Of a stretch of DNA of 64,000 nucleotides, positions 22,198-64,000 are shown piece after piece (the first letter of the stretch is position 1; each line of letters begins with the position of its first letter). Source of the DNA: Crambe crambe (lineage: Eukaryota > Porifera > Demospongiae > Poecilosclerida > Crambeidae); contig OZ004585.1 in the NCBI GenBank assembly GCA_963924555.1, positions 2,307,488 through 2,371,487 on the forward strand. Reading direction: 5' to 3'. Below the pieces are notes generated by a model. The model saw only the letters and a program-made list of their open reading frames with translations. It did no database searches and was not told the origin of the DNA. The position numbers were made by a program, and so were the translations under genes.

Positions 22198-24054
22198 CTA
22201 ACTAATTGTTTCATCATCTGAGCGATCCATTACATTGATATATTGCTCTATATTTCTATCTGGACTCTCTTCAATCCTCTTGTTTCTACTTCTCCAAGCC
22301 ATTATCCTGTTTCTTAGCTTCAATCTGCACCTTCCACGTGAGTAGACCCAGTAGAAAATCATCATCAGTATGTAAAGTAGAGGAATAACTGAAAAAATGC
22401 TTGCCATAATGTTGCAAAATGTGCTCAGCTGGTGTATTTTAATAGATGTAATATCTATGCCACATATCAAAATATAGTCCATAGCAAGAAAGGTGAAAAA
22501 TATCGAATAGGTTTTTGAATAATGGCTGACTGAAGATTTAAATGGTTGGATAGTCACAATGAGCAAGACCAGAAATAAAAGAATTATAGCACTGATAAAG
22601 AAGTACGCTGTTGTCGTAGTTAAGGCATATATTAAAATGAAAATAAAACGGAATGAAAATAAGACAGCAGTAAACCATCGACAATCTCTAGTATCTGGTT
22701 CCATACCATCTTTAAAGACACCTTGAAAGGAGTCCATAAAGGTGTGCAAGATGTGCCAGCGAACAGGAATGTAATTCAGGAATTTCTGAAAGAAAATAAA
22801 AGGATAGAGAGCAAGAAGTGCAACTGGTAGGATGACGAATACCGTTGAAACGATTATGGCAAGAATTCCATATGGAAGATGCTCCTTGCCAAAATACTTA
22901 ATATTTCCAGCATAGAATAGTACGACATTGTGATTATAGCCATCTTGATGTAGTTGATAAATTCGAGTTGGGCCAAGTAAGTCGCATGTCACGGAAAGAA
23001 ATTTTGCATTTGATAAAAAGAAGACTGTAGCATAAGAGTCAATGATAGAACTCCTGATATTCCAATTCCTGTTGAAAAAAGAGAACAGCAATTGAAATGG
23101 TTTCCACATGATAACAATGACTCTGTATTTTTTATCATACAGGTTTAAAAGTAGGTAAGTGACAGCCAAGAAGAAGAGAGGGTACACAGCAATGGCATAG
23201 TCCAAAGCTAGGGTGGGGAGAAGATCTATTCCAAGACAGATGTCAGAGTAAAATGGCCTGAAGAAATCAAAGTTCCATATACCATAGAGTGAAATGACTA
23301 TCTTTGATGGTAGTAGATAGTTTGGTCTAAGACTTATACCTAAAAATAATATACGTGACATGGCTGGCATCGAAATGAACTGGCTGTACCATATGACTGG
23401 ATGCAAGTGGCTAGTAAGAGCATTCATTTGGAAGAAGATGATAAAGAAACAGAATGCTGTTAGTGGGAGATAGGCAGCCATGACGTACCTACCCCAGTTC
23501 CACCTAACATTTGGACATTTGATGCAAGTTAGGTTGAAAGAGTAGGCAAGGGGGTAATGATGAGACAGACACCTTCCACATAATTGCCCGGCTCTGTTGA
23601 ATGATGAACAGATAGAATTGTTTCGCTTTTTGCGTGAAAGCAAGTGGTATATGACATCCACAGAAGAAAATTTTTTCATATTCTCGCAATTATAAATACA
23701 AGCCCCTACTTTAGTTAAATTCACTCCTTCATCGAATGTGGCACAGTAGCAATCTAAGACAGCAGAAGTACCCTTCTCTTCATCACACTTGATGATTTCG
23801 TGAGGGTAGTGACCACACTTACACTGTCCTTGCTTACAAAAGAGAGCAGGAGGACACATTTCTTCACTGTCATAGTTATAGCAAGATGATGAGTGATTGC
23901 TGATCGATGTGTTAGTAATTTTTGGAGTCGCTTGAGAATCAGTTAGAAATTGAATTTGTTCATTTTGACTGTTAAAGTTTTTATTTTTGAATAGGCTGCT
24001 TGAACTCTGGAGAAGTTCAGCAGACAAGATCACCACCATAAAAGCTATGAACAT
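22198..24054 (-). CDS. Orphan 15-Cys multi-pass membrane protein, copy 1
   Basis: Single open frame, 618 residues, starting at the first ATG (an upstream TTG frame extension is unlikely). Signal peptide MFIAFMVVILSAELL; ectodomain of about 170 residues with 15 Cys (CPPALFCKQGQCKCGHYPHE, TSAVLDCYCATFDEG, LCGRCLSHHYPLAYSFNLTC) and several N-glycosylation sites; then about ten membrane helices. Between helices sit a conserved KEHLPYG segment and an intracellular-looking DSFQG.YKDG...DTRDCRWF box. C-terminal basic tail about 45 residues. No intron, unlike the channel gene next door. Family not recognised; five relatives lie in this window. Probable plasma-membrane receptor or channel-like protein; function unknown. 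Confidence 0.9.
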   Translation of the reverse strand: MFIAFMVVILSAELLQSSSSLFKNKNFNSQNEQIQFLTDSQATPKITNTSISNHSSSCYNYDSEEMCPPALFCKQGQCKCGHYPHEIIKCDEEKGTSAVLDCYCATFDEGVNLTKVGACIYNCENMKKFSSVDVIYHLLSRKKRNNSICSSFNRAGQLCGRCLSHHYPLAYSFNLTCIKCPNVRWNWGRYVMAAYLPLTAFCFFIIFFQMNALTSHLHPVIWYSQFISMPAMSRILFLGISLRPNYLLPSKIVISLYGIWNFDFFRPFYSDICLGIDLLPTLALDYAIAVYPLFFLAVTYLLLNLYDKKYRVIVIMWKPFQLLFSFFNRNWNIRSSIIDSYATVFFLSNAKFLSVTCDLLGPTRIYQLHQDGYNHNVVLFYAGNIKYFGKEHLPYGILAIIVSTVFVILPVALLALYPFIFFQKFLNYIPVRWHILHTFMDSFQGVFKDGMEPDTRDCRWFTAVLFSFRFIFILIYALTTTTAYFFISAIILLFLVLLIVTIQPFKSSVSHYSKTYSIFFTFLAMDYILICGIDITSIKIHQLSTFCNIMASIFSVIPLLYILMMIFYWVYSRGRCRLKLRNRIMAWRSRNKRIEESPDRNIEQYINVMDRSDDETIS

Positions 24055-25790
24055 TTCGATATCTGCCTGAATCAACAATGGAGCAACTAGTTACTGTTTG
24101 TAGCATCAATATTTCCCAAATTTAAAGGGTCAGCTATCATTTACTCTATCTTGAAAATGATGACATTATGAAGGTGAACAATAGTAAGAGCAAAAAAAAA
24201 AAAAAAAAAAAACCCAACAAATTTCCTTTTAGCTATTGCAGCTGTCTGACCTATCCAGGTCACCATGGTGAGATCAGTTATAGAGAAATTGTTCTCTATA
24301 GAAAAAAATTAATGTCCTAGCTAAAGTTATAAAGTTGCTTCAAGTTAACTAGTAGCTATTTTCATACTGAATGCTCAGCTTTAAATGTAAACTTATGAAT
24401 TTTTTTCAGCGTTTACTTCATAAAGGAACTGTTTCCTTATTGTTTTTAGGAACTCTAGTAGACACATCTGCATATTTTCCAGTGTTTACTCCATAGGATC
24501 TCTTTCCTTGTAAACTGTCTTCAATTTCCTTGCTTTTTTAATTTATAGACTTCTAGGTACCTATTTACGTAGCTGTAGGCTACACTATAAAATAACACTG
24601 GTATTTTTAGCAGAATTTTAGCGATTTCAAATCCAAAGGATTTGCAGCGAGGTACCATTTTTCCAGAAAACAAACATTATTGCAACATACATTAATTTTA
24701 TTACATAGTAGATTTTACATCTTGTCATTCTTATCACAGCTTATAATAATTCAATTAGCTAACAGCAAAGTCACAGATCTATAGGTCTAGAAAGTTATAT
24801 GTAAGTCGTGCATGTTGTGAGTAATTGGTGTACATGTAAATCACAATATCTCAAATTTAATTTTGGTGGTACAAAGCATTGAAGTGTGGAGCATAATATC
24901 TAAATCCCCTTTTTAGTTTTCAAAACCACGAAATTTTGTCCCAAAAAAAATGCTGTTAGCTATTCAGTGAATTATTCTTTGACTGTTACACTTGTAGTTC
25001 CAGAATTGCTATTACTTGGAACCCACCCTGTTCTCTTTTGGAGGTTATTTTTGTATCGAGTGTATGTATATGCAAAGATTGTAGGGATGGTGATCTTCTT
25101 TTCCCCTTGCTATGGTTGGAGCCGGCTGCACAGGATTGTCCTCTTCATAGGGGAAAAGGGAATGAAAAGGACTATTAAATTTTATTGAAGTCCGATATGA
25201 TGCCACCACATGCAGAGCTGAATGAAAATGAATGTTCACAACAACTGAGAATTTTAGATTCTGTCTCTATGGTTACCTTTTATAGGGACAGACTATCTAT
25301 TAAAATAAACAATGACTGTGATCTAATGGTTACAACCAATAAGAATGATGATTTTGCACAGTGCTTCAGGTGAATGAATGTTTATAAGATATGTAGCTAC
25401 TTACAGTTAGTTAGTCTCTGCTTATTTTTCTCAGCTAACATTGTAGAGATTAATTGTATTTGTGTGGTCATGTTATCTTGTTTGTGGTATATTGTATTTC
25501 CTGTACGCATGTGCACAGTAATGCTTTTTAATCACCAAGTTATCACTTTTCTGTCAGTTGTTGAATATAGTCCAATAAAAGTTTTCACTCTTGTAGTTGG
25601 CTAGTAGCAAAAACACTACAAACATGATAAAAACTCAATAGAATTAGTTCTCATAAAATTTATTGAAGTATGAAAAGGACTATTAAATTTTATTAAAGTT
25701 GAACTAGTTAGTCTTTTCACACTAGCTAGTGAATTACCATAGCTCTAGCTTAGTATGAACTATTTTTTTGCATATCTATGTACTTATGGA
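24055..25790. other. Gene-free stretch
   Basis: Holds a poly-A run at 24190-24209 and a copy of a dispersed repeat at 25620-25690 (AATAGAATTAGTTCTCATAA; also seen near 17960-18020 and 39890-39950). Short plus-strand frames at 24967-25604 show no family motif or splice logic. Confidence 0.4.
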
Positions 25791-25794
25791 ATTT

Positions 25795-26792: not shown

Positions 26793-26794
26793 AG

Positions 26795-29700: not shown

Positions 29701-30226
29701 AGTGCCACGGGTTCAGAGAGGTGGTAGAATAGGGTATCAGTCAGTCCCCCCACTATTGCCGGCCTATAATAAGTACATGGGTGGAGTTGATCGCCTTAGT
29801 CAGCTTAGAAAGAGTTATGGTTATGATAAGAAATCTAAGAGGTATTGGTTGCGTGCCTTTTTCCAGTTCCTTGACTATGCAGTAGATAATGCCTTTATTT
29901 TGTACAAGCATAATTGTAAGTATTATAGAGTGAAAGCATGTAAGCTGCTGGATTTTAGATTGGATTTGGTTCGCCTTCTGTTAAAGGATAAGAGGTATAG
30001 GGAAAGGTCTCCTTCTAGTAGTAGTAGTAGTGGTGGTGCAATGGATGATGTCAGTGTTGAATGTAGTCTGGTTAAGTCCACTGACGCTGGCTTGCCGCGG
30101 GGTAGGTGTGAACAGTGCTTAATCAAGAGGGCGAAACGAGTTCGATTTACATCCTACGCCTGTTCCATCTGCAGGAAACGACTGTGTAAAATTCCTTGCT
30201 TTAGAGACTTTCATAGATTACAATAA
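26795..30226 (+). CDS. piggyBac-family transposase, two exons
   Basis: Exon 1 26795-26861 (MELCEADRQELGHPSDEWSPYN) and exon 2 28575-30226 join in phase with GT-AG ends to give 572 residues. An acidic run of Glu/Asp is followed by the DDE_Tnp_1_7 fold. The three expected catalytic aspartates are present: ELAVDEAMIKYKGR (about 237), HVVYCDNFFSSG (about 321) and YMGGVDRLSQLR (about 428). The C-terminus has the Cys-rich zinc-binding domain CEQC...CSICRKRLCKIPC. The enzyme class cuts and inserts DNA at TTAA in the nucleus. There is no frameshift or stop. I found no matching right terminal repeat downstream to 30851, so the gene may be a domesticated copy or the right end is lost. Confidence 0.9.
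27060..28500. repeat. Inverted minisatellite filling the transposase intron
   Basis: About 44-base units built from CCACACCCACCCTGTGGCTTC and ATTAAGGGCAATTAAAC. Units at about 27350-28140 run in one orientation; those at 27060-27340 and 28150-28500 run in the other (GGGTGTGGCTGTTTAATCGC). The array as a whole can therefore fold back on itself. It makes up most of the 1.7 kb intron. Confidence 0.85.
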
Positions 30227-30851: not shown

Positions 30852-32669
30852 TCAAAATGTGTCCAGTCTGTCTCCATTGATTGAGTTATACCCTCTCCTC
30901 CGGGATTTAATCTTGCTAGCTAAGCAGATTCCTAATTTACTATGCGAATATATCCAACGAACGATTATCAGTAATGTGTAGAGAAGAGGACTGATACCAG
31001 CAAAAAAAATTAGTACAAAGAAAACTGGAACAAACTGCTTTTCTTTAATGATGCTTGCTGCCTCCAAACCGCTTATAGTGATGTATAAAAGAATAGAGAA
31101 GGAAAAAAAAGTGGCATTGATTTTCGAGTAATGAGCAACTGGAGCTTTGAAAGGTTGCACATTAACTATCAGCAAAACTAGAAGTAAGAGACCGACAGTG
31201 GCAAGAAAGAAGAAGATGATATGATGAGCAAAAGCATACACCATGAAACCAATGACTCGTGCTAAGAAGAAGATTCCTGCAAACCATCGACAATCTCTAG
31301 TACCTGGTTCTGTGCCATCTTTATAGATACCTTGAAAGGAGTCCATAAAGGTGTGTAAGATGTGCCAGCGAACAGGAATACAATTCAGGAACTTCTGGAA
31401 GAAAGCAAAAGGATAGAGAGTAAGAACAGTGACTGGTAAGATAACGAAGACTGTCGATGTGATCATGGCCAGTATAGCATAGGGGAGATGTTCTTTGCCG
31501 AAGTATTTGATGTCCCCCGAAATATACAGTCCAAAAGTGTAGTTGTAGCCATCCTGATGGAGTTCATACACTGGTATCGGGACAATTAAGTCATATGTCA
31601 CACTGAGAAATTTTACACTTGATAAATAAAAGAAAGTAACACATGAGTCAATTGTGGAGGTTCGGACATCAAATTTTTTCTTGAAAAGGGAACGGATGAA
31701 TCGAAATGGCTTCCATATAGCAACGATAACGCTATAATTCTTGTCGTACAGGTTTATCAAAATGTAAGTGATAGCCATGAAGAAGAGAGGGTACACAGCA
31801 ATGACATAGTCCAAAGCTAGGGTGGGGAGAAAACCTATTCCAAGACAGATATCAGAGTAAAATGGCCTGAAGAAATCAAAGTTCCATATGCCATACATTG
31901 AAATGATTATCTTTGCCGTTATTAAATATTGTGGTCCGGAGCTTAAATGCAAAAACACTACACGTGAAATAAGTGGTATTGAAATAGACTGACTGAACCA
32001 TATGACTGGATGCAAGTGGCTAGTAACAGCATTAATTTGGAAGAAAATGACGAAGAAGCAGAATAACGATAGTGGGAGATAAGCAGCCATGATGTACCTA
32101 CCCCAGTTCCAGCCAACATGTGGACATTTGATGCAAGTTAGGTTGAAAGAGTAGGCGAGGGGGTAATGCTGAGACAGACACCTTCCACATAGTTGCCCAG
32201 CTCTGTTGAATGATAAACAGAAAGAATCATTTCGCTTTTTGCTTGAAAGTAAGTGGTATATACTGTCTGTCGATTCTGTCTTCATTGGATTCTTGCAATT
32301 ATAAATACAAGCCCCTACTTTAGTCAAGTTCACTCCTTCATCAAAAGTTGCACAGTAGCAATCCAAGACAGCAGAAGTGCCTTCTTTTTCATCACACTTG
32401 ATGATTTCGTGAGGATAGCGACCACATCTACAGTGTCCTTGTTTACAAAAGAGAGCAGGAGGACACATTTCTTCATAACTATCGTTGTAGCAAAATGATG
32501 AGCGATTGTCATTTAGTGATACATAAGGAGTCACTTGGGAACCTGTCAGAAACTGAATCTTTTCATGATAGCTGAAAACTTGAAGGTTACTTGAGAAACA
32601 CTGAAGGATCAAAGTGGACAAGATCACCAACATAAAGTCTATAACTCTTCCTATACACATTTTAGCCAT
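30852..32669 (-). CDS. Orphan 15-Cys multi-pass membrane protein, copy 2
   Basis: Single open frame, 605 residues from the first ATG; a second ATG nine bases on (32660) aligns better with the start of copy 1 and is equally possible. Signal peptide VIDFMLVILSTLILQC; ectodomain with the same Cys order as copy 1 (CPPALFCKQGHCRCGRYPHE, LCGRCLSQHYPLAYSFNLTC); about ten helices; conserved KEHLPYA and DSFQGIYKDGTEPGTRDCRW boxes; C-terminal tail KIKSRRRGYNSINGDRL. Close to copy 1 in most of the ectodomain and membrane part, which suggests a local duplication later separated by the piggyBac gene. Confidence 0.9.
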   Translation of the reverse strand: MAKMCIGRVIDFMLVILSTLILQCFSSNLQVFSYHEKIQFLTGSQVTPYVSLNDNRSSFCYNDSYEEMCPPALFCKQGHCRCGRYPHEIIKCDEKEGTSAVLDCYCATFDEGVNLTKVGACIYNCKNPMKTESTDSIYHLLSSKKRNDSFCLSFNRAGQLCGRCLSQHYPLAYSFNLTCIKCPHVGWNWGRYIMAAYLPLSLFCFFVIFFQINAVTSHLHPVIWFSQSISIPLISRVVFLHLSSGPQYLITAKIIISMYGIWNFDFFRPFYSDICLGIGFLPTLALDYVIAVYPLFFMAITYILINLYDKNYSVIVAIWKPFRFIRSLFKKKFDVRTSTIDSCVTFFYLSSVKFLSVTYDLIVPIPVYELHQDGYNYTFGLYISGDIKYFGKEHLPYAILAMITSTVFVILPVTVLTLYPFAFFQKFLNCIPVRWHILHTFMDSFQGIYKDGTEPGTRDCRWFAGIFFLARVIGFMVYAFAHHIIFFFLATVGLLLLVLLIVNVQPFKAPVAHYSKINATFFSFSILLYITISGLEAASIIKEKQFVPVFFVLIFFAGISPLLYTLLIIVRWIYSHSKLGICLASKIKSRRRGYNSINGDRLDTF

Positions 32670-36004: not shown

Positions 36005-37828
36005 ATGTTGGTGTGTGAGTATTTATCTCTTATAGTTGCAGTCTGTTTTATTGGATCTACTGGCATTCAGAGCTATGATTACCCTATGTCTTCCACTCTG
36101 AATCCCAAAGTTCAGATAGATTCACCAGTGATCAATCGTTCATCATCATCACACTGCTCTGCTGGAAACCCTGAGGGCTTGTGTGCAATTGGTCTCTTTT
36201 GTGAGAAAGGACATTGCAAGTGTGGTCGCTATCCTTATGGCATCATCGAATGTGATGAAGACAAAGGCACCTCTGCTGTTTTGGATTGCTACTGTGCTAC
36301 ATTCGATGAGTTGAGAAATGTAACTAAAATAGGTGCATGTATTTATAACTGTGAGAATGTGAGTACTAGTTTTGTTGACAGTGTGTATCATCCTCTTCTT
36401 AACAGTACACAAAAACAAGAAGAAAGTGTGTGTGGATTTTTTAAAAGGAATGGTACACTATGTGGGCATTGTCAGCATGGGTTCTATGCCTTGGCCTACT
36501 CTTTTAACTTGACTTGTATCCCTTGTTCTCATGTCGGCTGGAACTGGGGTAGGTACATCATGGCAGCCTATCTCCCACTTACACTATTCTGTTTCATAAT
36601 TCTATTCTTTGAAGTAAATGCTGCCACTAGCCACTTGCATCCAGTCATATGGTACAGTCAATCTATTTCAGTACCAGCAATGGCACGCATATTACTCTTA
36701 TCTGTGCGTACGAAATCCACCTATCTTATGGTAGTGAGACTACTCTTATCTGTCTATGGCATATGGAACTTGGATTTCTTTAGACCCTTTTACTCAGACC
36801 TCTGTCTTGGAATAGGTTTTCTCCCCACCCTAGCTTTGGACTATGTCGTTGCTGTGTACCCTCTCCTCCTCATGGCTCTTACCTACTTACTGGTAAACCT
36901 GTATGACCAAAATTACAGAGTTATCGTTATCATATGGAAACCATTTCATATCATTTTTTCATTCTTCAAGAAAAATTGGAACATCAGAAGTTCCCTGATC
37001 GACTCCTTTGCTACATTCTTTCTACTAGCAAATGTTAAATTTCTTAGTGTTACTTTTGATGTACTTGCCCCTACAAGAGTATATGAGTTACATAGAGGAA
37101 ACTATAGCTCAACGTGGGCAGTGTACTATGCTGGAGATGTCAAATATTTTGGCAAAGAGCATCTTCCTTATGCCATCCTGGCCATATTTGTTACATTGGT
37201 TTTTGTTATTCTACCGTTCATAATTCTTGCTTTCTACCCTTTCACTTTCTTCCAGAAACTTCTGAATTGTATTCCTGTTCGTCGGCACATCTTGCGCACT
37301 TTTGTTGACTCCTTTCAAGGAGTTTATAAAGATGGAACAGAACCAGGCACCAGAGATTGTCGATACTTTGCTGCTCTCTTTTTCATAATGCGCTTTGTAT
37401 TCTTCCTGGTCTATGTAGTTACTCTTGATTCCTCATTTTTCTCTTTATCTGCAATGATTCTCTTGCTTTTAGTCCTCCTGATCATCAACGTACAACCTTT
37501 CAAAGCACCCCTGTCTCATTATTCAAAGATCAACTCTATCTTTTTCACCTTCCTGGCTATGGATTTAATCACTATGAGTGCCCTGGATTTAGCCTCTATC
37601 AAGACACGACAACTTATTACATTCCTACGCATTGGTATAGTCTGCTTTGGGTTCGTCCCTCTTATTTACGCATTGATAATGATCATCCACTGGATATATT
37701 CCCATAGGAGGTTCGGTCTCAAACTCAACAACAAAATCAGAGCCCGATTTTACGGGTACAGGGAATTGAATGGCAGGGAAACAAGCAATGGAGGAGACTA
37801 CATTGATTCTATGGAACGCATTCAATGA
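36005..37828 (+). CDS. Orphan 15-Cys multi-pass membrane protein, copy 3
   Basis: Single open frame, 607 residues, ATG at 36005. Signal peptide MLVCEYLSLIVAVCFIG; ectodomain with 15 Cys (CAIGLFCEKGHCKCGRYPYG, TSAVLDCYCATFDELRNVT, LCGHCQHGFYALAYSFNLTC); then about ten helices from GRYIMAAYLPLTLFCFIILF on. KEHLPYA and DSFQGVYKDGTEPGTRDCRY boxes conserved. Tail ends RFYGYRELNGRETSNGGDYI. Nearly identical to copy 4 at 47566, including more than 100 bases of 3' flank. Compared with the minus-strand copies the ectodomain differs most between Cys 10 and Cys 11. Confidence 0.9.
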   Translation: MLVCEYLSLIVAVCFIGSTGIQSYDYPMSSTLNPKVQIDSPVINRSSSSHCSAGNPEGLCAIGLFCEKGHCKCGRYPYGIIECDEDKGTSAVLDCYCATFDELRNVTKIGACIYNCENVSTSFVDSVYHPLLNSTQKQEESVCGFFKRNGTLCGHCQHGFYALAYSFNLTCIPCSHVGWNWGRYIMAAYLPLTLFCFIILFFEVNAATSHLHPVIWYSQSISVPAMARILLLSVRTKSTYLMVVRLLLSVYGIWNLDFFRPFYSDLCLGIGFLPTLALDYVVAVYPLLLMALTYLLVNLYDQNYRVIVIIWKPFHIIFSFFKKNWNIRSSLIDSFATFFLLANVKFLSVTFDVLAPTRVYELHRGNYSSTWAVYYAGDVKYFGKEHLPYAILAIFVTLVFVILPFIILAFYPFTFFQKLLNCIPVRRHILRTFVDSFQGVYKDGTEPGTRDCRYFAALFFIMRFVFFLVYVVTLDSSFFSLSAMILLLLVLLIINVQPFKAPLSHYSKINSIFFTFLAMDLITMSALDLASIKTRQLITFLRIGIVCFGFVPLIYALIMIIHWIYSHRRFGLKLNNKIRARFYGYRELNGRETSNGGDYIDSMERIQ

Positions 37829-40090
37829 GATCATTGTTTTACATAACTAACCAATGATATTCAACAGCAGAATGTGAAAGTATAACTCACATTCAGTGTT
37901 TTCTATACACTTACTTTGTACTCTGTAGCTATATATTTGTAATAACAACTTGAAGCACTCAGTTACATATCTATGGTTACCATTTGTTCAGTCTGCTCAT
38001 GTTTAACTTCTCTCTGTGTGTGTTGTTTTTGGAAGACTCTTTAATGGCTTAGTTGCTCCCTTACAAATAACTGTAAACAATAGGCTTATTATTAGAACTG
38101 CTATTTATACTAGCTACTGTGAGACTGTCCTGATTGTCATGCAACTTTCTGCAATGTCAGCACAAGTAGCTGGCTAACATTATTTTAGCTATGATGCAAC
38201 AGTAAACGTTGTATAGTCCCTAGATGGATCACAATTATGGCTCTCCACCAGTGGCCAAGCTTGGTCTTATGACTTGTACATTACATCACCATTGTTTAAC
38301 AGAATTAGCTATCCGGAGCTTTCCACACCTATATTCCCAGATTTTCTACTAATGCATGTTTAGATTCAGTAGCCATTCATCCATGGTTGCAATCTCCAGC
38401 TAGCTAGTTATACTGAAGCTACATAAAAATTACTCTAGACAATCAAGATTTTCCCTAAAAAATATACCAGAAGGATTTCATGTCAAGTTACATAGTTCCA
38501 AAACCAAAATATATAAAAGTTACAGCTTGGAATGATACAACAGATAACCAATGGCTATAATTAATGTTAGCTTGTGTGAGACACCAGTGACCACTCGTAC
38601 CACACCTTCTTCTTGTTGCTGAGACACCACTCGTACCACACCTTCTTCTTGTTGCTCAGTTGCCACATATTAAAGAGCCAGGGCCAGGGTCAAGGTAGAC
38701 AAAAATCATTCTATAAATATTTATTGAGTTATCAATTTCAATAATTCAACATTGAAACTACCATTTAGACATTCACCTTAAATTAGAATTTGTTTTGCTC
38801 ATTTTTGGAAATGTTTAGCCTATATGACAGCTTATGGATAAGAAATGGATAAGTGTGTTGACAGGAAAATTATAGTGTTTTAAGTTATCTCTTCCTTTCA
38901 TGTACATACCAACCACAATAACAACATTTAGCTATGTACTAGCCTATAATACTAAAAGGAAGAGTGTGCAAGTGTGTGCAAGTCAGCTTGCTTACACTTA
39001 GCTATGTATTCACTAAATAAAGAAATACAACAAAAATCAATTTTAGAAATCATGTTCTTTTCCTCGTTATCCAAATTAATGAATATGAAGTAATTGTAGA
39101 GTAAGGAGAGTAAGGGTAGAATACCAGTGTTCTTAATCTTGATTAGCTATAAGTTTCAAAAAAGCAGGTATACAAGTACCTAATGTGATTCTGGAAAGCA
39201 TAACAGGCAAAAAGTAGCTAGCTATGAGAGCTCAAGTGCATATTCAATGAATCCAGGCTACTTTGTAGCTAGCTATGTAGACACTAGCTTTGTAGCTAGT
39301 GCTTTCTCTATTAAACAGTTATGAAGAGATCAGCAAGCTAGCTATAACTTATACATGAAATTAAGATAGCTTCAGTTCTGAGAAAATAAGCTTGTCCTAC
39401 AAAAAATACCAGGCTGGCTACTCACTAATTACATAGCTATTTTTGGCAAGTTCAGTCATTTAAGAGTAGCTACATCAAATTGAATCAGTGCTACAGAATT
39501 TGTTTCTGAACTGATACCCCTGTAGCTAGCTATCCACTTCTATGATCCAGTTCTTCATCCATAACCCAAATTTTCTATGTGAAAAAAAAAATCCAGTAGA
39601 ATAGCTATCATCATTAATATCACAGAATAGTAGCAATTGCATGGAAAAAAGTACGTAGATAGTTGATGTAGTTTAATAGTTGCTGTATCTATACACTACA
39701 TAATATACTCTGCTTATTATTCTCAGCTAACATGATAAAGCCTTAGGGAAATAGTTTTTATGACTTCAGGTATTGGCATGCTATAATATCCATAGGCGTT
39801 TGCATGTGCGTTGTCTAGATAACGAGCGTAGCTATATAAGGACGTTTCTGTGTGCATTTTTTGTATCACCCTGATGAAGGCTAGAGTATTCTGGTCGAAA
39901 CGTTGGTGGTTTGTTTCATAAGCTAATTTTATGAGAACTAATTCTATTGGACTACATAATATAGTTCATAGCTATAGCTAGAAAGGTGGTTAGCTAATTT
40001 TCACGAAATGAGACTTGGTCGAATGTCACATGATGAGAAAACAGCACCAATAGCTAGAGAAATACAAAATTGTTGGAGTTATAAGGCAGA
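37829..40090. other. 3' flank of copy 3, gene-free
   Basis: 37829-38000 and 38700-38880 match 49387-49540 and 49950-50115 downstream of copy 4, so the duplicated unit extends about 1 kb past the gene. A 36-bp sequence (ACCACTCGTACCACACCTTC region) is repeated in tandem at 38580-38655. A dispersed repeat with GTCGAAACGTTGGTGGTTTG lies at 39880-39950 and also at 17965-18030. No exon seen. Confidence 0.5.
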
Positions 40091-40094
40091 CTAG

Positions 40095-40185
40095 AAAAGA
40101 ACACCATCGGCAATTTGGTTTTGTTCCATCTTTATAGCAAACATCAAGTGAAGGAGTCCATAAATGTGTGCATTGGCATTGTAAT
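40095..40185 (-). pseudogene. Remnant of an orphan receptor copy
   Basis: ACCATCGGCAATTT, GTTCCATCTTTATAGCAAAC and GAAGGAGTCCATAAATGTGTG follow the minus-strand family sequence for the conserved HTFMDSF...YKDGTEP...DCRW box, with deletions. The duplicated block around it recurs before copy 3 (35595-35760). Confidence 0.55.
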
Positions 40186-40369
40186 GTGAGGAGTGATTAC
40201 CTATTACATTCGAAGAGTGGAAAGCTTCAATTGATTTTTGTCTTTTTTTTTTTTTCTATTTGAAGCAAGTAGCTATAGTGTTTTAACAATTAGGGTCATA
40301 ACATAATAGGGCTTGATGCTACTTACTCCTCAGTTTAGGGTTGTAGCTAGATGAACAGTAGCCTCGTCC

Positions 40370-47565: not shown

Positions 47566-49386
47566 ATGTTGTTGATGCGTGAGTATTTATCTCTTGTGGT
47601 TGCAGTTTGTTTTGTTGGATCTACTAGCATTCAGAGCTATGATTACACCACTCTGAATCCCAAAGTTCAGATAGATTCACCAGCGATCAATCATTCATCA
47701 TCATCATCACACTGCTCTACTGGAAACCCTGAGGGTTCGTGTGCAATTGGTCTCTTTTGTGAGAAAGGACACTGCAAGTGTGGTCGCTATCCTTATGGCA
47801 TCATCAAATGTGACGAAGATAAAGGCACCTCTGCTGTTTTGGATTGTTACTGCGCCACATTCGATGAGTTGAGAAATGTAACTAAAATAGGTGCATGTAT
47901 TTATAACTGCGGGAATGTGAGTACTAGTCTTGCTGACAGTGTGTATCATCCTCTTCCTAACAGTACACAAAAACAAGAAGAAAGTGCATGTGGATTTTTT
48001 AAAAGGAATGGAACACTATGTGGGCGTTGTCAGCATGGGTTTTACCCTTTGGCCTACTCTTTTAATTTGACTTGTATCCCTTGTTCTCATGTTGGCTGGA
48101 ACTGGGGTAGGTACATCATGGCAGCCTATCTCCCACTTACACTATTCTGCTTCATAGTTCTATTCTTTGAAGTAAATGCTGCCACTAGCCACTTGCATCC
48201 TGTCATCTGGTACAGTCAAGCTATTTCAGTACCAGCAATATCACGCGTATTACTCTTAGCTGTGCATACAAAATCCACCTATCTTAAGATAGCAAGACTA
48301 CTCTTGTCTGTCTATGGCATATGGAATTTGGATTTCTTTAGACCCTTTTACTCTGACATCTGTCTTGGAATAGGTTTTCTCCCCACCCTAGCTTTGGACT
48401 ATGCTGTTGCTGTGTACCCTCTCCTCCTTATGGCTCTTACCTACCTACTGGTAAACCTGTATGACCAAAACTACAGAGTTATTGTTATCATATGGAAACC
48501 ATTTCATATCATTTTTTCATTCTTCAAGAAAAATTGGAATATCAGAAGTTCCCTGATTGACTCCTTTGCTACATTCTTTCTACTAGCAAATGTTAAATTT
48601 CTTAGTGTTACTTTTGATGTACTTGCCCCTACAAGAGTATATGAGTTACATAGAGGAAACTATAGCTCAACGTGGGCAGTGTACTATGCTGGAGATGTCA
48701 AATATTTTGGCAGAGAGCATCTTCCTTATGCCATCCTGGCCATACTTGTTACATTGGTTTTTGTTATTCTACCGTTAATAATTCTTGCTCTCTATCCTTT
48801 CACTTTCTTCCAGAAATTTTTGAATTGCATTCCTGTTCGTCGGCACATCTTGCGCACTTTTGTTGACTCTTTTCAAGGAGTTTATAAAGATGGAACAGAA
48901 CCAGGCACCAGAGATTGTCGATACTTTGCTGCTCTCTTTTTCATAATGCGCTTTGTATACTGCCTGGTCTACGGATTTACTCTTAATTCCTCATTTTTCT
49001 CTATAACAGCAATCATTCTCTTAGTTTTAGTCCTCCTGATCATCAACGTACAACCTTTCAAATCACCCCTGGCTCATTACTCCAAGATCAACTCTATCTT
49101 TTTCACCTTCCTGGCTATGGATTTCATCACCATAAGCGCCCTGGATTTAGCCTCTATCAAGACACGACAACTTATTACATTCCTATATGTTGGTATTGCC
49201 TGCTTTGGGTTCGTCCCTCTTATTTACACATTAATGATGATCATCCACTGGATCTATTCCCATAGGAGGTTCGGTTTCAAACTCACCAATAAGATCAGGG
49301 CCAGATTTTACGGGTACAGGGAATTGAATGGCAGGGAAACAAGCAATGGAGGAGACTACATTGATTCTATGGAACGCATTCAATGA
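47566..49386 (+). CDS. Orphan 15-Cys multi-pass membrane protein, copy 4
   Basis: Single open frame, 606 residues from the ATG at 47566. I chose this start by comparison with copy 3, although the frame is open from 47458 and a further ATG lies at 47575. Signal peptide, 15-Cys ectodomain (CAIGLFCEKGHCKCGRYPYG, LCGRCQHGFYPLAYSFNLTC), about ten helices, REHLPYA and DSFQGVYKDGTEPGTRDCRY boxes, tail identical to copy 3. Most differences from copy 3 are scattered single residues (for example FFLVYVVT versus YCLVYGFT in a late helix). It is the sister of copy 3, with the Mutator-like element and a fold-back element inserted between the two. Confidence 0.9.
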   Translation: MLLMREYLSLVVAVCFVGSTSIQSYDYTTLNPKVQIDSPAINHSSSSSHCSTGNPEGSCAIGLFCEKGHCKCGRYPYGIIKCDEDKGTSAVLDCYCATFDELRNVTKIGACIYNCGNVSTSLADSVYHPLPNSTQKQEESACGFFKRNGTLCGRCQHGFYPLAYSFNLTCIPCSHVGWNWGRYIMAAYLPLTLFCFIVLFFEVNAATSHLHPVIWYSQAISVPAISRVLLLAVHTKSTYLKIARLLLSVYGIWNLDFFRPFYSDICLGIGFLPTLALDYAVAVYPLLLMALTYLLVNLYDQNYRVIVIIWKPFHIIFSFFKKNWNIRSSLIDSFATFFLLANVKFLSVTFDVLAPTRVYELHRGNYSSTWAVYYAGDVKYFGREHLPYAILAILVTLVFVILPLIILALYPFTFFQKFLNCIPVRRHILRTFVDSFQGVYKDGTEPGTRDCRYFAALFFIMRFVYCLVYGFTLNSSFFSITAIILLVLVLLIINVQPFKSPLAHYSKINSIFFTFLAMDFITISALDLASIKTRQLITFLYVGIACFGFVPLIYTLMMIIHWIYSHRRFGFKLTNKIRARFYGYRELNGRETSNGGDYIDSMERIQ

Positions 49387-50335: not shown

Positions 50336-53300
50336 ATGGAAACCTTCAAGTTGTATATTTTGCTTCATATGGTGATGCTAAGTGCTTCATTCCAAAGTCT
50401 ACATTATGTAATGCCGAATTGCCTCCCTTCATTCAACTCTTCATGTCTCACATTTGATCAGTACATCAATGAAAGTGCAAAATACTTCACATCTGGAGCT
50501 ACATTTATGTTCCTACCTGGAAATCACAGTGCACGACATCCACTGTATATTGAACATGTATCCAACATTACCATTAAAGGTTCAGATAATGCCACCATCT
50601 TATGTATGGACAACTTCACTATTCGATGGCACAATGTCAGCTATGCAACCATTGACCGAATGAGGTTTGTGTTCTTGTATGAGCATGATCTAGAGTTAAG
50701 GATGCTAGATTACATCAAAAGCAGAAAAATCATAATTTCTAATTCAGTATTTCAAGGGAAAGTTTCTAGAAGAATAAGAGCACGAGCAGTTCATTTAGAT
50801 CACACAGACATCATAATAATGAAATGTTTCTTCAGAGGAATTTTCAATGATATTGCAGGAGCTATACTTGCTGCAAATCAAAGTTTTTTAACTCTCATTG
50901 ACAACACTTTCATTGGAAATCTAGCAAGACAATCAGGTGGTGCGATTAATGTTATCAATAGTTATTCAATACTTAACAGAAATATATTCGTCAACAATCA
51001 TGCAGCTGAAACAGGTGGAGCCATTGTTGCTTATAATAAAACTTACCTCACGCTCATTGAAAATAAATTCTTTCGAAATAATGCAAGCGTTGGAGGAGCC
51101 ATTTATTTTTTTATTATGAATTGTGTACTCCTTGGAAATAATTTCACTAATAATGTTGCAATGATTACAGGTGGGGCCATTTACATTGAAACTGTAGCAA
51201 GACATTCAGGTGGTGTGATTACTGTTAACAATACATATATAACTGATTCAATACTTAACAGAAATATATTCTTCAACAATCATGCAGCTCAAGCAGGTGG
51301 AGCCATTGCGGCTGCATATGAAAATCACCTCAAGCTCATTGGAAATAAATTCTTTCGAAATAATGCAAGCGAACTTGGAGGAGCCATTTTTGTTTCAAGT
51401 ATAAATAGTATGAGACTCCTTGGAAATAATTTCACTAATAATGTTGCAATAATGTCAGGTGGAGCCATCTTTGCTATTAACGGGAACCTAACATTCATTG
51501 GAGCTACATCATTCATTAATAATACAGGTGGAGAAGGAGGTGCTTTGTATTCGTTTAATTCTGCTGTAGTGTTCAAAGGAAACACATCATTTCATAACAA
51601 CAGTGCTACACTAGTTGGAGGTGGAACTAGTTCACAATATGGGAACATATCATTTGCCGGAATCACAACATTTACTGCCAACAGAGCTGGAAGAGATGGT
51701 GGTGCATTGAATGCAATAAGTACAGCAGTCACTTTCGAAGGGATGCTGAAATTTTCTTTTAACTCTGCAAGGACTGGTGGTGCAATGTATTTTATTAATG
51801 CAGCATCTCTGACTTTAGCATCACACACTACCCTTGAAACTTCTCACAACAGTGCCATTGACTATGGAGGAGCAATATTTCACAAGGACATTGTCACACC
51901 CAGTCAATGTGACAATGTGATCCATCAATTATTCCAAGTTTCATCAAAACTTCCTTTTTGCTTTCTGCAATTGAAGGACCTAATGGCATTTAACATTAAC
52001 TCGTATTATGGCTCTGCAGGAACTGAAGGTAGTTTTTTATATGGTGGATTATTAGATAATTGCCGAATTCCAGAATTAAAAAATAGATACTATAAACCAG
52101 AGAGTCTATTTGAAGTAGTATCACCAGATGAGAAGACTAACCAAATAGCATCTGAAGCGTATCTGTTGTGTTTTTGCTATGATGAACACTACAACTATGA
52201 ATGCAACATAACAGAGACTTATGTAACTATTTTCCGGGGGCAAAATGTTGAATTGAATGTCAAAGCATTAGGCCAAAGAGGAAGCACTGTTTCTACTACA
52301 GTCGTGGCAATAACGAGTGAAAACACCAGGATGAGAGTTGGTCAAAATCTTCAAAAGATCTCACAAAATAATTGTTCTAATTTGAGATATACTCTCTATT
52401 CCCGAAATAATTCAGCAAGCTTAACGATTTATCCTGATGGTCCATGTCATGATACTGGAAAGGCTTATAAAGTCATTCACATGACATTCCTTTCCTGTCC
52501 AGAAGCATTTAGTTTACAAGATGATCAGTGTTTATGTGAGGAACGATTACAACCATATAACACTGAGTGCATTATTGGGAAAGAAAACATCATCCTCAAA
52601 AAGAATACATCAAAATTTTGGATGAGCATTTTAAGGGGTGACAATGCTACCTATCAAGGTCTGATTCTCTATCCCTCTTGTCCACCCAATTACTGCAAAA
52701 CAAGCACTCTTGAAATCTCTACGGATAATCTGGACATTCAGTGTGCCATGAACCGAACGGGAGTCCTTTGTGGACAGTGTGCAACAAACTATAGCCTCTT
52801 GCTTGGTACTTCAGATTGTGGGCAATGTTCAAATAAGTATCTAGCCCTACTGCTTCCCTTTGCAGTAGCAGGAATAGCCTTAGTCATGTATTTGTCATCC
52901 TTTAAACTAACAGTTGCCACAGGAATGATCAACACCCTGATTCTCTATGCTAACTTTGTACAGGTCAATAGAAGATTGTTCTTCCCCACAGATAGCGTTA
53001 GCGTCCTAACAGTATTCATAGCCTGGTTGAACCTTGATCTCGGTTTTCAGACTTGCTTCTTTGATGGACTGGATGCATACATACAAACTTGGCTTCAGTA
53101 TGCTTTTCCTCTGTATGTCTGGCTGTTAATTGGCTTTATGATAGTGACCAGCAGGTATTCCATGACAGTCTCTGAATTGATAGGACATAACCCTGTTGCA
53201 GTCCTTGCTACCCTTATTCTCATGTCGTACACTAAAATCTTGCAGGTAGTTATTGCCGTCTTCTCCTCAGTCAGCTTGGAATATCCCCATGGAAAGAGGG

Positions 53301-54040
53301 TGAGAGTGTGGTTGAAAGATGCCAATGTGGCATACTTGCATTCAAAACATCTCTTTCTAGCAGTAATTACTTTAGTGGTTGTCATATTCTTCTTCCTTCC
53401 TTACACCGTCTTCCTCTTACTGGGAACTCGACTCTATCGTATTTCACCTAGACGGTGTACCCACATGCTTCTAAGGATGAAACCTCTACTGGACTCCTAC
53501 TTTGCCCCATACAAGAGGAACTCTCGTTATTGGACTGGATTCCTCTTGTTGGTACGCTGTGTTCTTTATATCGTGTTTTCATTCAATTCACTTGGGGACA
53601 CAAATAAAAGCCTGTTGGCAATTGTCATAACATTTACTGGAGTTGGGGGCATTGCTTGGATTTCTGGAAGAGTGTACAAGAACTTCTATATAGAGATTAT
53701 GGAGAGTTTGATATATTTAAATCTCATCACTCTATCAGCTGCTACTCTTACTCAAGTCAACAGGACAGCACTAGTCAATGTATTAGTGGGAATAGTGTTT
53801 GTCAACATGATCATAATCACCATTTATCAATTGTATCTCCTTTACATTTCCAAGTCGAAAAAATGGCTGAAAATAAAAGAAAAGCTATCCAATATCTTTC
53901 CATATTCCAGAGCTAGAGCAGAAAATGGTACATCAACAGATGACGTAGTAGCACCAACAAGGCCACCACAAAAAAACGAAGATAAATTTGTCACGTGCAC
54001 TGTGATAGAATTACGTGAACCTTTAATAGAAGCTAGGTAG
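50336..54040 (+). CDS. Pmp-like beta-helix ectodomain plus multi-pass membrane module
   Basis: Single open frame, 1234 residues from the ATG at 50336. Signal peptide METFKLYILLHMVMLSASF. Residues about 30-130 precede a parallel beta-helix region (about 130-510) with some 13 GGAI-type motifs alternating with FxxN motifs (FIGN, FVNN, FFRN, FTNN), the signature of chlamydial polymorphic outer-membrane proteins (Chlam_PMP). A linker with scattered Cys leads to a GCC2/GCC3-like box (LCGQCATNYSLLLGTSDCGQC, about 808-828). About nine to ten helices follow, with YLHSKHLF and KPLLDSYFAPYKRNSRYW boxes that align in order with the orphan receptors next door. Cytosolic tail about 60 residues. Surface protein; ligand unknown. 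Bacterial contamination is unlikely because neighbours on both sides are related eukaryotic genes. Confidence 0.85.
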   Translation: METFKLYILLHMVMLSASFQSLHYVMPNCLPSFNSSCLTFDQYINESAKYFTSGATFMFLPGNHSARHPLYIEHVSNITIKGSDNATILCMDNFTIRWHNVSYATIDRMRFVFLYEHDLELRMLDYIKSRKIIISNSVFQGKVSRRIRARAVHLDHTDIIIMKCFFRGIFNDIAGAILAANQSFLTLIDNTFIGNLARQSGGAINVINSYSILNRNIFVNNHAAETGGAIVAYNKTYLTLIENKFFRNNASVGGAIYFFIMNCVLLGNNFTNNVAMITGGAIYIETVARHSGGVITVNNTYITDSILNRNIFFNNHAAQAGGAIAAAYENHLKLIGNKFFRNNASELGGAIFVSSINSMRLLGNNFTNNVAIMSGGAIFAINGNLTFIGATSFINNTGGEGGALYSFNSAVVFKGNTSFHNNSATLVGGGTSSQYGNISFAGITTFTANRAGRDGGALNAISTAVTFEGMLKFSFNSARTGGAMYFINAASLTLASHTTLETSHNSAIDYGGAIFHKDIVTPSQCDNVIHQLFQVSSKLPFCFLQLKDLMAFNINSYYGSAGTEGSFLYGGLLDNCRIPELKNRYYKPESLFEVVSPDEKTNQIASEAYLLCFCYDEHYNYECNITETYVTIFRGQNVELNVKALGQRGSTVSTTVVAITSENTRMRVGQNLQKISQNNCSNLRYTLYSRNNSASLTIYPDGPCHDTGKAYKVIHMTFLSCPEAFSLQDDQCLCEERLQPYNTECIIGKENIILKKNTSKFWMSILRGDNATYQGLILYPSCPPNYCKTSTLEISTDNLDIQCAMNRTGVLCGQCATNYSLLLGTSDCGQCSNKYLALLLPFAVAGIALVMYLSSFKLTVATGMINTLILYANFVQVNRRLFFPTDSVSVLTVFIAWLNLDLGFQTCFFDGLDAYIQTWLQYAFPLYVWLLIGFMIVTSRYSMTVSELIGHNPVAVLATLILMSYTKILQVVIAVFSSVSLEYPHGKRVRVWLKDANVAYLHSKHLFLAVITLVVVIFFFLPYTVFLLLGTRLYRISPRRCTHMLLRMKPLLDSYFAPYKRNSRYWTGFLLLVRCVLYIVFSFNSLGDTNKSLLAIVITFTGVGGIAWISGRVYKNFYIEIMESLIYLNLITLSAATLTQVNRTALVNVLVGIVFVNMIIITIYQLYLLYISKSKKWLKIKEKLSNIFPYSRARAENGTSTDDVVAPTRPPQKNEDKFVTCTVIELREPLIEAR
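50925..51470 (+). repeat. In-frame tandem duplication in the beta-helix region
   Basis: About 270-bp units: AACAGAAATATATTCGTCAA and AACAGAAATATATTCTTCAA head two matching blocks that run through CATGCAGCT...GGTGGAGCCATTG and CTTGGAAATAATTTCACTAA. Each unit adds about 90 residues with four GGAI repeats. Confidence 0.75.
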
Positions 54041-54099
54041 TCATTCAGATTGTATTTTGTATGAATATTTAGTATAAGCAATTATAATATTTTTTCATT

Positions 54100-54655: not shown

Positions 54656-55149
54656 CCTATTTTTATTTTTTTAGCTATTTAGATCTAAATATTTATTCCT
54701 TGTGTAATATCACATTATGGTACATGTATTAAACCATTAACAACAATAATTATTGTAAACATAATTATTCTATGACATAATAATGATATCTGTCAAAATA
54801 AACTACTGGACGAACTGTACGATAATACACATTAAATCCCCTTATTTGTGCAAGGGTAGCCGAGCTCCAACTTGTATGACTGAGTCAAGAAGCTTAAAGG
54901 TCCACTCCATTCCCATTTATCAAGTCATACCCTCACACTAAACAAGAGAATTTACGTATAATCATGATTCATACTTCATAATTATTTGCAAAACTTGAAA
55001 TTATAAAACAATAATACTTCAGTGGCTACATGTAGTTAATTATTAAACAATTTCTGTTTTGCTAAAGTATTACTTGTAATTATAATAATCACTGACAGTT
55101 TCATTGTGCCACCCTATTCAAGAGTACGAGGTCAAACTCTTGTTGTATT

Positions 55150-55480
55150 CAGGTGCTCGTTCAATTGAATCAAGTCTGTATCATCGTCCAAACCTCTGTA
55201 TCCATTTCTCCAGCTTCAACCCAACTGTCTCTGAGAGAAAATCAAGTAAGTAACTAGTATCACTGCATAAACCAGAGGAAGGACCAAGAATATGCCAATG
55301 ATGATATAAAATAGTATACTCAGTTGATATATAATACACTAAGGCAATGTGAAACATTTGACAGCAAGCGAGCATTCTTGTGCTTGCTGAAGGATCAGTC
55401 AATACAAAGCTGAAGGTTCTATTTCTGTTGACTCTATAAGATTGATTGTGGATGGTGAATGTAGCCATGGTCATTTCTAG
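55150..55480 (-). pseudogene. Remnant of an orphan receptor C-terminus
   Basis: Minus-strand pieces match the end of the 57693-59573 gene: YAVILVTYLIF, WRNGYRGL-like sequence and a DDDT...LI.LNE tail, in the right order but split among frames. The last helix and tail are all that remain. Confidence 0.6.
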
Positions 55481-57692: not shown

Positions 57693-59573
57693 TCAAGGTG
57701 AACAGCTTCTTTCAGAAAATAAGATCAAACTCTTTGCATCACTTGGACGTACATGTTCAATTAAGTCATCTGTATCATTGTCTAATCCTCTGTATCCATT
57801 TTTCCAAGCCCTTATCCTGTTAGCTAACTTTAGCCCGAACCGTCGATGGGTGAAGATCCAGTAAGTGACTATAATCACTGTATAAGCCAAAGGAACGATC
57901 ATAAATATGGCAGTGATGACGTAGAAGAAATTTTCAAGTTGATGTACTTTGATATTTGCTAATTCAAAACCACACAGGGTAAGATAAAGCAGTGAAAGTA
58001 GGATGAAAAAAGTGGCATTGATCTTTGAGTAGTGGGCCACTGGAGCTTTAAAAGGTTGTACATTAATTATCAGCAAAACAACTACCAAGAGAAGAATCGC
58101 ACCGAAGGCGAAGTAGATTGATGTATGGACAAAGGCAAAAATTATGAATAAAAACAAGCGTGAATTAAGGAAGACTGATGCAAACCATCGACAATCTCTT
58201 GTTCCTGGTTCTGTTCCATCTTTATAGCAGCCATTGAAGGAGTCCATGAAGGTGTGCAAGATGTGCCAGCGAATGGGAATGCAATTCAGTAACCTCTGGA
58301 AGAAAGCAAAAGGATACAGAGCAAGAAGAGCAATAGGTAGGATTATGAAGACTATCGAAATAATCATGGCTAAGATACCATAAGGAAGATGCTCTTTACC
58401 AAAGTATTCTATATCTCCTGCATAATACAGTCCTAATGTTTGGTTATAACCATCTCTATGCAATTCATAAACTTGTGTTGGAGTAAGTAAATCAAATGTC
58501 ACACTGAGAAATTTAACATTAGATAAGAAGAAAAATGTAGCATAGCAGTCAATCAGAGATGTTTTTATATTCCAGTTCTTCTTAAAAAGAGAGAAAATAA
58601 CCTTAAATGGCTTCCACATTACAAGGATGACTCTGCAGTTCTTGTCATAAAGTTTAATCAGTAAATAGGAGACAGCCATGAGGAGGAAAGGGTATACTGC
58701 AATGGCATACTCCAAAGCTAGGATGGGGAGAGGACCTAACCCAAGGCAGATATCGGAGTAAAAAGGCTTGAAGATGTCCAAGTTCCATATGCCATAAAAT
58801 GACAGAAGGATTTTTGCACCTAGCAGATAGCTGGGTTGAGTATGTATGGCTATGAGTACCACACGGGACATAGCTGGCACTGATATGGCCTGACTATACA
58901 CTATGACAGGAAGCAAATGACTAGTGACAGCATTAATCTTGAGAAAGAAAATGAAGAAGCAGAACAACATTAGCGGGAGATAAGCTGCCATGAGGTACCT
59001 ACCCCAGTTCCAGCCAACATGTGGACATTTGATACAAGTCAAGTTAAAAGAGTAAGCCAAGGGATAGTGTTCAGGCAGGCATCTTCCACATAGCATTCCA
59101 GTTCTGTTCAAAGGGGCACATATGGTGTTATTATTTTCAGTATCATTTGGAAGCGAGTGATACACGAAATTACGCAATGTTTTAGGATAATGGTCACAAT
59201 TATACACACAAGCACCAGCTACAGTTGCATTTTTACCTTCAACAAAAGTGGCACAGTAGCAATCTAAGACAGCAGAAGTGCCCTTTTCTTCATCGCACTT
59301 GATGATGTCATGAGGATAATGACCACACTTACAGTATCCTTCGTCACAAAAGAGAGCAGGAGGACATGACCCCCTGGGAAGATCATTGGAACAAATTGAT
59401 GAATGATTACTTGAAGAGTTTATGTTCACTATCGGTAGAAGATCAATTCGTGCTTGAAAACTGTTCACTTCTGATGCAATTATATTGGAATCCAATATAC
59501 TCAATACAGGTTTGACAGAGAAGGTCACAAGCAAGCAAGCTACGTGCAGATAGGCAAGGATCTCATTCATCAT
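57693..59573 (-). CDS. Orphan 15-Cys multi-pass membrane protein, copy 5
   Basis: Single open frame, 626 residues from the first ATG (59573; a second ATG follows at once). Signal peptide MMNEILAYLHVACLLVTFS; ectodomain with CPPALFCDEGYCKCGHYPHD, TSAVLDCYCATFVEGKNAT and MLCGRCLPEHYPLAYSFNLT; about ten helices; KEHLPYG and DSFNGCYKDGTEPGTRDCRW boxes. The box reads FNGC where copies 1-4 have FQG(V/I), and copy 6 shares this, which groups 5 and 6. C-terminal tail DNDTDDLIEHVRPSDAKSLI is longer than in copies 3 and 4. Confidence 0.9.
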   Translation of the reverse strand: MMNEILAYLHVACLLVTFSVKPVLSILDSNIIASEVNSFQARIDLLPIVNINSSSNHSSICSNDLPRGSCPPALFCDEGYCKCGHYPHDIIKCDEEKGTSAVLDCYCATFVEGKNATVAGACVYNCDHYPKTLRNFVYHSLPNDTENNNTICAPLNRTGMLCGRCLPEHYPLAYSFNLTCIKCPHVGWNWGRYLMAAYLPLMLFCFFIFFLKINAVTSHLLPVIVYSQAISVPAMSRVVLIAIHTQPSYLLGAKILLSFYGIWNLDIFKPFYSDICLGLGPLPILALEYAIAVYPFLLMAVSYLLIKLYDKNCRVILVMWKPFKVIFSLFKKNWNIKTSLIDCYATFFFLSNVKFLSVTFDLLTPTQVYELHRDGYNQTLGLYYAGDIEYFGKEHLPYGILAMIISIVFIILPIALLALYPFAFFQRLLNCIPIRWHILHTFMDSFNGCYKDGTEPGTRDCRWFASVFLNSRLFLFIIFAFVHTSIYFAFGAILLLVVVLLIINVQPFKAPVAHYSKINATFFILLSLLYLTLCGFELANIKVHQLENFFYVITAIFMIVPLAYTVIIVTYWIFTHRRFGLKLANRIRAWKNGYRGLDNDTDDLIEHVRPSDAKSLILFSERSCSP

Positions 59574-60625: not shown

Positions 60626-60629
60626 AAAC

Positions 60630-63174: not shown

Positions 63175-64000
63175 TTAATGAGGTGCTAGTTCCATCGAAT
63201 CAATCAAGTCGTTAACATCATCATCTGATGCTTTGTATCCATTTCTCCAGGCTCTTATCTTGTACGTAGCTAACTTCAGCCCAAACTTTCTATGAGAGAA
63301 GAACCAATAACATACCATCATCACTGTATAAGCAAGGGGGATAGACATGAAGATAGCTAAAATTATGTAAAAAAATGTCACGAGTTTGTGCACCTTGATA
63401 TTCGCTAAATCGAAGCCAACTAAGGAAATATAGAGCAGAGAAAGGAAGGTAAAAAAGGTGGTATTTATTCTTGAATAATGAGCTTTTCGCAATTTAAAAG
63501 GTTGCACATTAACGATCGCTAAAACCAGTAGCAGGAGGCATATGGCTGCAAGAGAAAAGAAGATAACTGTAGGTTCCAAGGCATAAACCATGAACCCTAC
63601 GAAACGGACCAAGAAGAAGATAGCAGCAAACCATCGACAGTCTCTAGTTCCTGGTTCTGTTCCATCTTTATAGCAGCCATTGAAGGAGTCCATAAAGGTG
63701 TGCAAGATGTGCCAGCGAACAGGTAAGCAATTTAGAAACTTCTGGAAGAAAGCAAAAGGATAGAGAGCAAGAATAGCAATTGGTAAGATGATCATGACAA
63801 CTGAAACGATCATTGCTAGGAAAGCATAGGGAAGATGCCTTTTGCCGAGGTATTCAACATCTCCGGAGTAGTAGAGCCCCCAAGTATAATCATAACTGTT
63901 ATTGTTCAGTTCATATACTTGTGTCGGGATGAGAAAATCAAATGACACGCTGAGAAATTTAACATTTGATAAGAAAAAGAATGTAGCATAGGAGTCAATC
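63175..64000 (-). CDS. Orphan multi-pass membrane protein, copy 6, cut by the window edge
   Basis: The frame is open to the right edge, so only the last 274 or so residues are seen. It starts within SYATFFFLSNVKFLSVSFDF, then KRHLPYA, DSFNGCYKDGTEPGTRDCRW, the last four helices and a tail ending SDDDVNDLIDSMELAPH. Signal peptide and Cys-rich ectodomain must lie beyond 64000. It is closest to copy 5, with the same FNGC box and a similar duplicated 3' flank. Confidence 0.9.
   Translation of the reverse strand, partial: IDSYATFFFLSNVKFLSVSFDFLIPTQVYELNNNSYDYTWGLYYSGDVEYLGKRHLPYAFLAMIVSVVMIILPIAILALYPFAFFQKFLNCLPVRWHILHTFMDSFNGCYKDGTEPGTRDCRWFAAIFFLVRFVGFMVYALEPTVIFFSLAAICLLLLVLAIVNVQPFKLRKAHYSRINTTFFTFLSLLYISLVGFDLANIKVHKLVTFFYIILAIFMSIPLAYTVMMVCYWFFSHRKFGLKLATYKIRAWRNGYKASDDDVNDLIDSMELAPH

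Follow-up and report, generated by a model that had tools for sequence, protein, structure and literature searches.

A 64,000-nucleotide stretch of the Crambe crambe genome (C8:2307488-2371487, here called the window) holds a cluster of intronless genes for Cys-rich, multipass, receptor-like proteins, and it raises the question of which family these genes belong to and what their products might do. The original prediction, made from the letters of the window, described six members and three remnants of an undescribed family that it could not place with any named one. We searched the whole genome (143,139,886 bases in 119 contigs) and found that the cluster is genuine, with identities beyond chance, but that it does not stand alone, because long relatives, one of them inside the window, share both its Cys module and its membrane core.

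Members of the cluster and their defining features

The window holds six members of the type with a short ectodomain (short type; Table 1). Five of these, A to E, are complete single-frame genes, and F, which is cut by the window edge, is one 617-amino-acid (aa) frame in the genome, so the six one-exon genes originally described are all present. Member E serves as the reference for residue numbers. Member D has a second in-frame ATG upstream, at 47458, which would give 642 aa. The remnants fared less well: one is solid and one is weak, and our search of the window did not find the third, while a control search of the reversed window gave no matches at an E value of 0.01.

The same 15 Cys had been claimed for each member. 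We counted 15 ectodomain Cys (after residue 25) in A, B, C, E, and F, but 16 in D when it is read from the ATG at 47458; one of these becomes part of the signal-like N terminus when translation is taken to begin at 47569. Over 32 aligned short-type sequences (short rows), there were 15 Cys in 13 rows, 14 in nine, 16 in four, and other numbers (5 to 17) in six, several of which are sequences clipped when extracted. Both conserved boxes that had been described occur in all six window members, with A deviating in the DSF box (VFKDGMEPDTRDCRWF). By strict pattern, the HLPY box is found in 25 of the 32 rows and the DSF box in 16. The latter, DSF..YKDGTEPGTRDCRWF in member E, lies in a predicted cytosolic loop. 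The N termini look like signal peptides, as originally proposed, by hydropathy judged by eye rather than by a signal-peptide program.

Long relatives share the Cys module and the membrane core

Inside the cluster lies a 1,234-aa protein whose ectodomain carries Chlam_PMP (PF02415) repeats (E value, 1.1e-11), with the NCBIfam model POMP_repeat also over its cut-off. In tblastn searches, this long relative matched the short members (E value, 1e-9 against member E). Eleven Cys columns are common to both types, being present in all 14 long rows and in 94 to 100% of 33 to 34 short rows, with eight of the eleven at 100%. W263, N264, D266, F271, Y294, T346, P413, D444, and R462 are 100% conserved across short and long rows. 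When we compared the membrane parts alone with hhalign, short against long gave 97.4% (E value, 1.3e-11), versus 0.1% and 0.2% for reversed controls. These results demonstrate, at the level of sequence, that the short and long forms are homologous.

In two trees (46 and 40 rows), a branch with support of 100/100 set all short rows apart; it is a long branch, the first tree carries a warning about long branches meeting, and both trees are unrooted. The second tree represented the C8 array at 2.0 to 2.2 Mb by only three rows, for balance. The Cys and dN/dS counts include two broken short rows, which the tree, entropy, and hhalign analyses leave out.

Pfam scans of the ectodomains of five long pieces gave a beta-helix-type match over the cut-off in three, under the cut-off in one, and none in one. 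PF02415 was over the cut-off in the window long protein and in L012 and under it in L009, PF13229 (Beta_helix) was over the cut-off in L010, and the ectodomain of L053, from a long subgroup on C9, had no Pfam match over the cut-off. The five complete window members had no beta-helix match at E values up to 1, and because of this we place the short type as a variant branch of the long family. We thus assign the window cluster to a branch with short ectodomains within a larger family, in which the long members bear beta-helix-type ectodomains and a DUF7630-like Cys module. The simplest reading would be a single loss of the head in the short branch, and a gain of the head in the other members is a viable alternative.

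The five complete window members matched no Pfam family at E values up to 1, an outcome that, for a lineage-specific expansion, the original prediction had named as support for novelty. This did not hold for the wider set: 43 aligned short and long members matched 17 families at E values up to 5, among them DUF7630 (PF24633), which was matched by 11 of the 43 (best E value, 2.6e-5). We dismissed the other 16 as noise, each being matched by one or two members with weak E values. No G protein-coupled receptor (GPCR), TRP, ion-channel, or transporter model was among these matches, and no seven-transmembrane (7TM) clan model was matched by the five window members or by the 43, in agreement with the original failure to place the proteins in any such family. 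PF06011 and Ion_trans (PF00520) were likewise absent from the 17; a genome search with PF06011 gave no match, but its controls were also silent, so absence from the genome is not established. Sequence and profile searches of the PDB returned nothing credible (the best profile matches were a ribosomal protein, E value 0.27, and the EphA4 Cys-rich region, E value 5.9), and searches of bacterial/archaeal and viral collections confirmed no relative. At 16.6 bits, an NCBIfam Cys-rich match of member D fell far short of the cut-off of 100 and was dismissed.

Family size and mode of expansion

The locus counts are the union of seven protein searches of the genome, which scored 69 of 965, 81 of 683, 80 of 615, 80 of 755, 77 of 980, 90 of 499, and 91 of 511 candidates; because each search scored part of its candidates, the totals are lower bounds. 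In the first search, identities were 43 to 66% once the query is set aside, with member C higher at 88%. Small pieces adjoining a counted locus were left out, and some counted loci are fragments; of two short loci, C8:2343420 was counted by its intact 611-aa frame and C16:1154955 as a fragment. On this basis, the genome has at least 83 short-type loci, 69 of them with stop-free frames of at least 570 residues. C8 holds 49 over 0.56 Mb and C16 holds 25, which puts 74 on two chromosomes, with nine elsewhere. At least 181 loci have the long-type core, 126 of them with stop-free frames of at least 1,100 residues. A short-type neighbor lies within 30 kb of 77 of the 83 short loci and a long-type neighbor within 30 kb of 120 of the 181 long loci; seven of the long-type loci (four on C8, two on C16, and one on C19) have a short-type locus within the same distance. 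With at least 264 loci, the 181 long-type ones being classed by their membrane core, this is a very large receptor-like set, and we found no named domain over that core.

Two close short copies have common flanks of about 180 to 220 bases upstream and 630 to 670 bases downstream, and members C and D have about 120 and 140 bases in common, respectively. Since these flanks lie outside the frame, the copies arose by duplication at the DNA level, and retroposition is disfavored. Gene conversion between C and D was also considered but is not claimed: their longest identical run is 154 columns, and random draws gave a mean of 75 and a maximum of 170 in 2,000. Within C8 2.03 to 2.20 Mb, all but two small fragments have one orientation, and many broken copies lie between intact ones; in the window, two of the six members are opposite to the rest. 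The tandem copies, the common flanking DNA, and the many broken copies bear out the local birth and death by duplication that was originally proposed.

Selection, topology, and tail motifs

The summed ratio of nonsynonymous to synonymous substitution rates (sum dN/sum dS) was 0.33 over 230 nonindependent pairs with dS below 0.8. By part, it was 0.29 for the ectodomain, 0.32 for the membrane part, 0.49 for the tail (182 pairs), and 0.13 for the DSF box (207 pairs). These ratios indicate that the short-type genes are under purifying selection on average.

Hydropathy gave about ten hydrophobic segments per short member, which accords with the ten helices first suggested. However, the loop charges of the short rows (positive-inside rule) fit better with an outside N terminus, an inside C terminus, and nine crossings plus one conserved re-entrant-like segment (residues 256 to 281). 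Loop charge and hydropathy together suggest this layout rather than ten helices, and the N-out/C-in topology appears to be supported. Short ectodomains carry about five N-glycosylation sequons each. The predicted membrane segments contain three charged residues that both types conserve, D266, K354, and R472; in one long row, K354 is replaced by R. The predicted outer loops are more variable on average than the inner ones (1.18 bits over 63 columns versus 0.62 bits over 88 columns; Mann-Whitney P of 1e-6, with residues treated as independent).

The predicted cytosolic tail of the short type has a YxxPhi motif at a fixed position. A Tyr is present at the column of residue 594 in 30 of 31 short rows (member A lacks it), and the +3 position is I, L, or M in 29 of these 30 (member F has Ser), while the two middle positions vary; the two broken rows and a third, clipped at the sequence edge, were excluded from this count. 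An LRE-x-L-[LIM] box is found in 13 of 14 long tails, including the C terminus of the window long protein; we take it to be near the canonical acidic dileucine signal, yet not one. Two long members of the C9 subgroup have a short-like tail with NGYEVI. One such tail belongs to a 1,250-aa long-type protein at L053:3-3752 (minus strand).

Possible functions of the short-type proteins

More variable outer loops and a positionally conserved YxxPhi tail together lead us to favor, tentatively, the view that the short-type genes encode receptors for recognition at the cell surface that undergo endocytosis and belong to a large family without a name. In such receptors, a disulfide-rich extracellular module would sit on a common core with about nine crossings, the N terminus outside, the C terminus inside, and a conserved cytosolic loop. 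Long members would display a beta-helix-type head, and the window short members, multiplied by tandem duplication, would do without it. Microbial or organic particles taken up by a filter-feeding sponge are the most plausible among the diverse ligands that the varied outer surfaces might bind, and the tail could recruit clathrin adaptors so that its YxxPhi motif internalizes the receptor together with its cargo. A bolder proposal, which we regard as possible but doubtful, is that these proteins form an undescribed class of non-GPCR recognition receptors with about nine crossings, hundreds of them in one sponge, and that the headless branch has multiplied into a chemosensory or microbe recognition repertoire that works through regulated endocytosis.

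Several observations weigh against the endocytic-receptor reading. YxxPhi is a short motif, and the conserved membrane charges would suit a channel or transporter too. The positive-inside signal is weak in the long rows, where outer loop L5 has 3.9 K+R and inner loop L4 has 2.2. The contrast between outer and inner loops is uneven, as outer L5 (0.79 bits) is close to inner L4 (0.86 bits) and the tail, though inner, varies (1.35 bits). Diversifying selection on the ectodomain was not demonstrated, the ratio being below 1 overall, though single recent pairs reach 0.8. AlphaFold2 (AF2) models were unusable, both for member E with seven window rows (predicted local distance difference test score [pLDDT], 34.5) and for the ectodomain of the long protein alone (pLDDT, 41; mostly strands).

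The main rivals are roles as channels and as GPCR-like chemoreceptors. Channels gated by a ligand or by mechanical force, with a core resembling that of TRP/polycystin or fungal FLC proteins and the Cys or beta-helix ectodomain as the sensor, would account for the multipass N-out/C-in layout, the re-entrant-like segment, and the membrane charges. We consider this unlikely, given that neither PF06011 nor Ion_trans was among the Pfam matches, that the PDB profile search gave nothing credible, and that the PF06011 genome search was empty, though with silent controls. The original prediction had inferred a possible chemoreceptor, immune, or self-recognition role. Chemoreceptors that resemble GPCRs in role but not in fold, with signaling via the conserved cytosolic loop and few of the many expressed per cell, would fit the tandem intronless genes and the better average conservation of the inner loops. 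The roughly ten hydrophobic segments instead of seven, the lack of any 7TM Pfam match, and a conserved tail motif that points to trafficking make such a role less likely still. Allorecognition or self-recognition molecules might be expected in a large, clustered gene set, but purifying selection on the ectodomain on average renders this improbable. A role in transport or lipid handling, with the ectodomain as an accessory, is very improbable: a multipass core with conserved membrane charges would suit it, but no transporter model was matched and an expansion of this size would be unusual. The many broken copies amid intact genes could suggest a mostly silent gene island, maintained by duplication and with little function, but we give this hardly any credence in light of the low dN/dS ratio and the intact-length frames at 69 of the 83 short loci.

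It is an open question how animals without nerves sense their surroundings, and another how sponges sort microbes; this family may provide candidate genes for both. The conserved cytosolic loop and the tail motif are concrete points at which these roles can be tested.

Other features of the window

A 554-aa transposase frame that matches PF13843 (DDE_Tnp_1_7; E value, 1.9e-72) and is presumably of the piggyBac type lies between members A and B. Elsewhere, we observed exons that match the class C GPCR-like ligand-binding region ANF_receptor (PF01094); a frame that just passes the Ion_trans cut-off of 25, with 25.1 bits, and probably belongs to a channel gene as an exon; an open reading frame made up of imperfect repeats rich in Pro and Ser (TYSPIISPCHSL); and a long purine/pyrimidine-rich simple repeat with open frames in several directions.

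Table 1. Positions of the short-type genes, the long relative, and other features in the window
Feature	Position	Strand	Remark
Member A	22201..24054	-	Intronless short-type gene, 618 aa
Member B	30855..32669	-	Intronless short-type gene, 605 aa
Member C	36005..37825	+	Short type, 607 aa; close duplicate of D
Member D	47569..49383	+	Short type, 605 aa from ATG at 47569
Member E	57696..59573	-	Short type, 626 aa
DSF box of member E	58179..58244	-	Residues 444-465
YxxPhi tail motif of member E	57783..57794	-	YRGL, residues 594-597
Member F, 3' part	63178..64000	-	Full frame extends beyond the window
Solid remnant	55121..55332	-	C-terminal part of short-type gene; E 9e-21
Weak remnant	40050..40190	-	E 1e-4, 33% identity
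Long relative	50336..54037	+	1,234 aa; Chlam_PMP repeat ectodomain
DUF7630-like Cys module of long relative	52739..52828	+	E 0.28, under Pfam cut-off
LRE-x-L-[LIM] box of long relative	54008-54037	+	C terminal
Transposase frame	28562-30226	+	554 aa
ANF_receptor exons	1271-2117	-	
Ion_trans frame	12530-12772	-	
Pro/Ser-rich repeat frame	43266-44066	-	
Simple repeat	15561-16050		

Comparison with known systems

The GPCR expansions of the sponge Amphimedon (PMC4302439) resemble the C. crambe set in that receptor genes are clustered and duplicated; as far as the portions consulted go, they differ in being seven-pass GPCR families, none of which the C. crambe members match. The main text of that paper uses none of the terms "intronless," "10 TM," and "PMP," and the parts seen of a choanoflagellate GPCR survey (PMC12716839) make no mention of the short/long family. 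Titles and abstracts retrieved in a literature search held no description of it, and the name PTHR11319 was not found in the portions of the literature consulted.

Closer likenesses come from domain models. DUF7630, a 45-residue domain of unknown function, has the same CxxNRxGxLCGxC...C..C block ahead of the first membrane segment. It scored over its cut-off at five genome loci, at one of them solely with neighbors included in the frame. In the short type, the five window members had no match to it at E values up to 1, and L051 and L052 reached 15.5 and 14.5 bits, where the cut-off is 27. The fungal TRP/FLC family PF06011 has a lumenal N terminus and many crossings, and it differs in that no sequence match with short or long members was found (the genome-search controls being silent). 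The PANTHER "GPCR-related" proteins of PTHR11319 combine a beta-helix with a multipass architecture and may resemble the family in this. Chlamydial Pmp proteins, for their part, are bacterial autotransporters; the likeness to Chlam_PMP and Beta_helix lies in the head of the long relatives, and it is in lacking this head that the short members differ.

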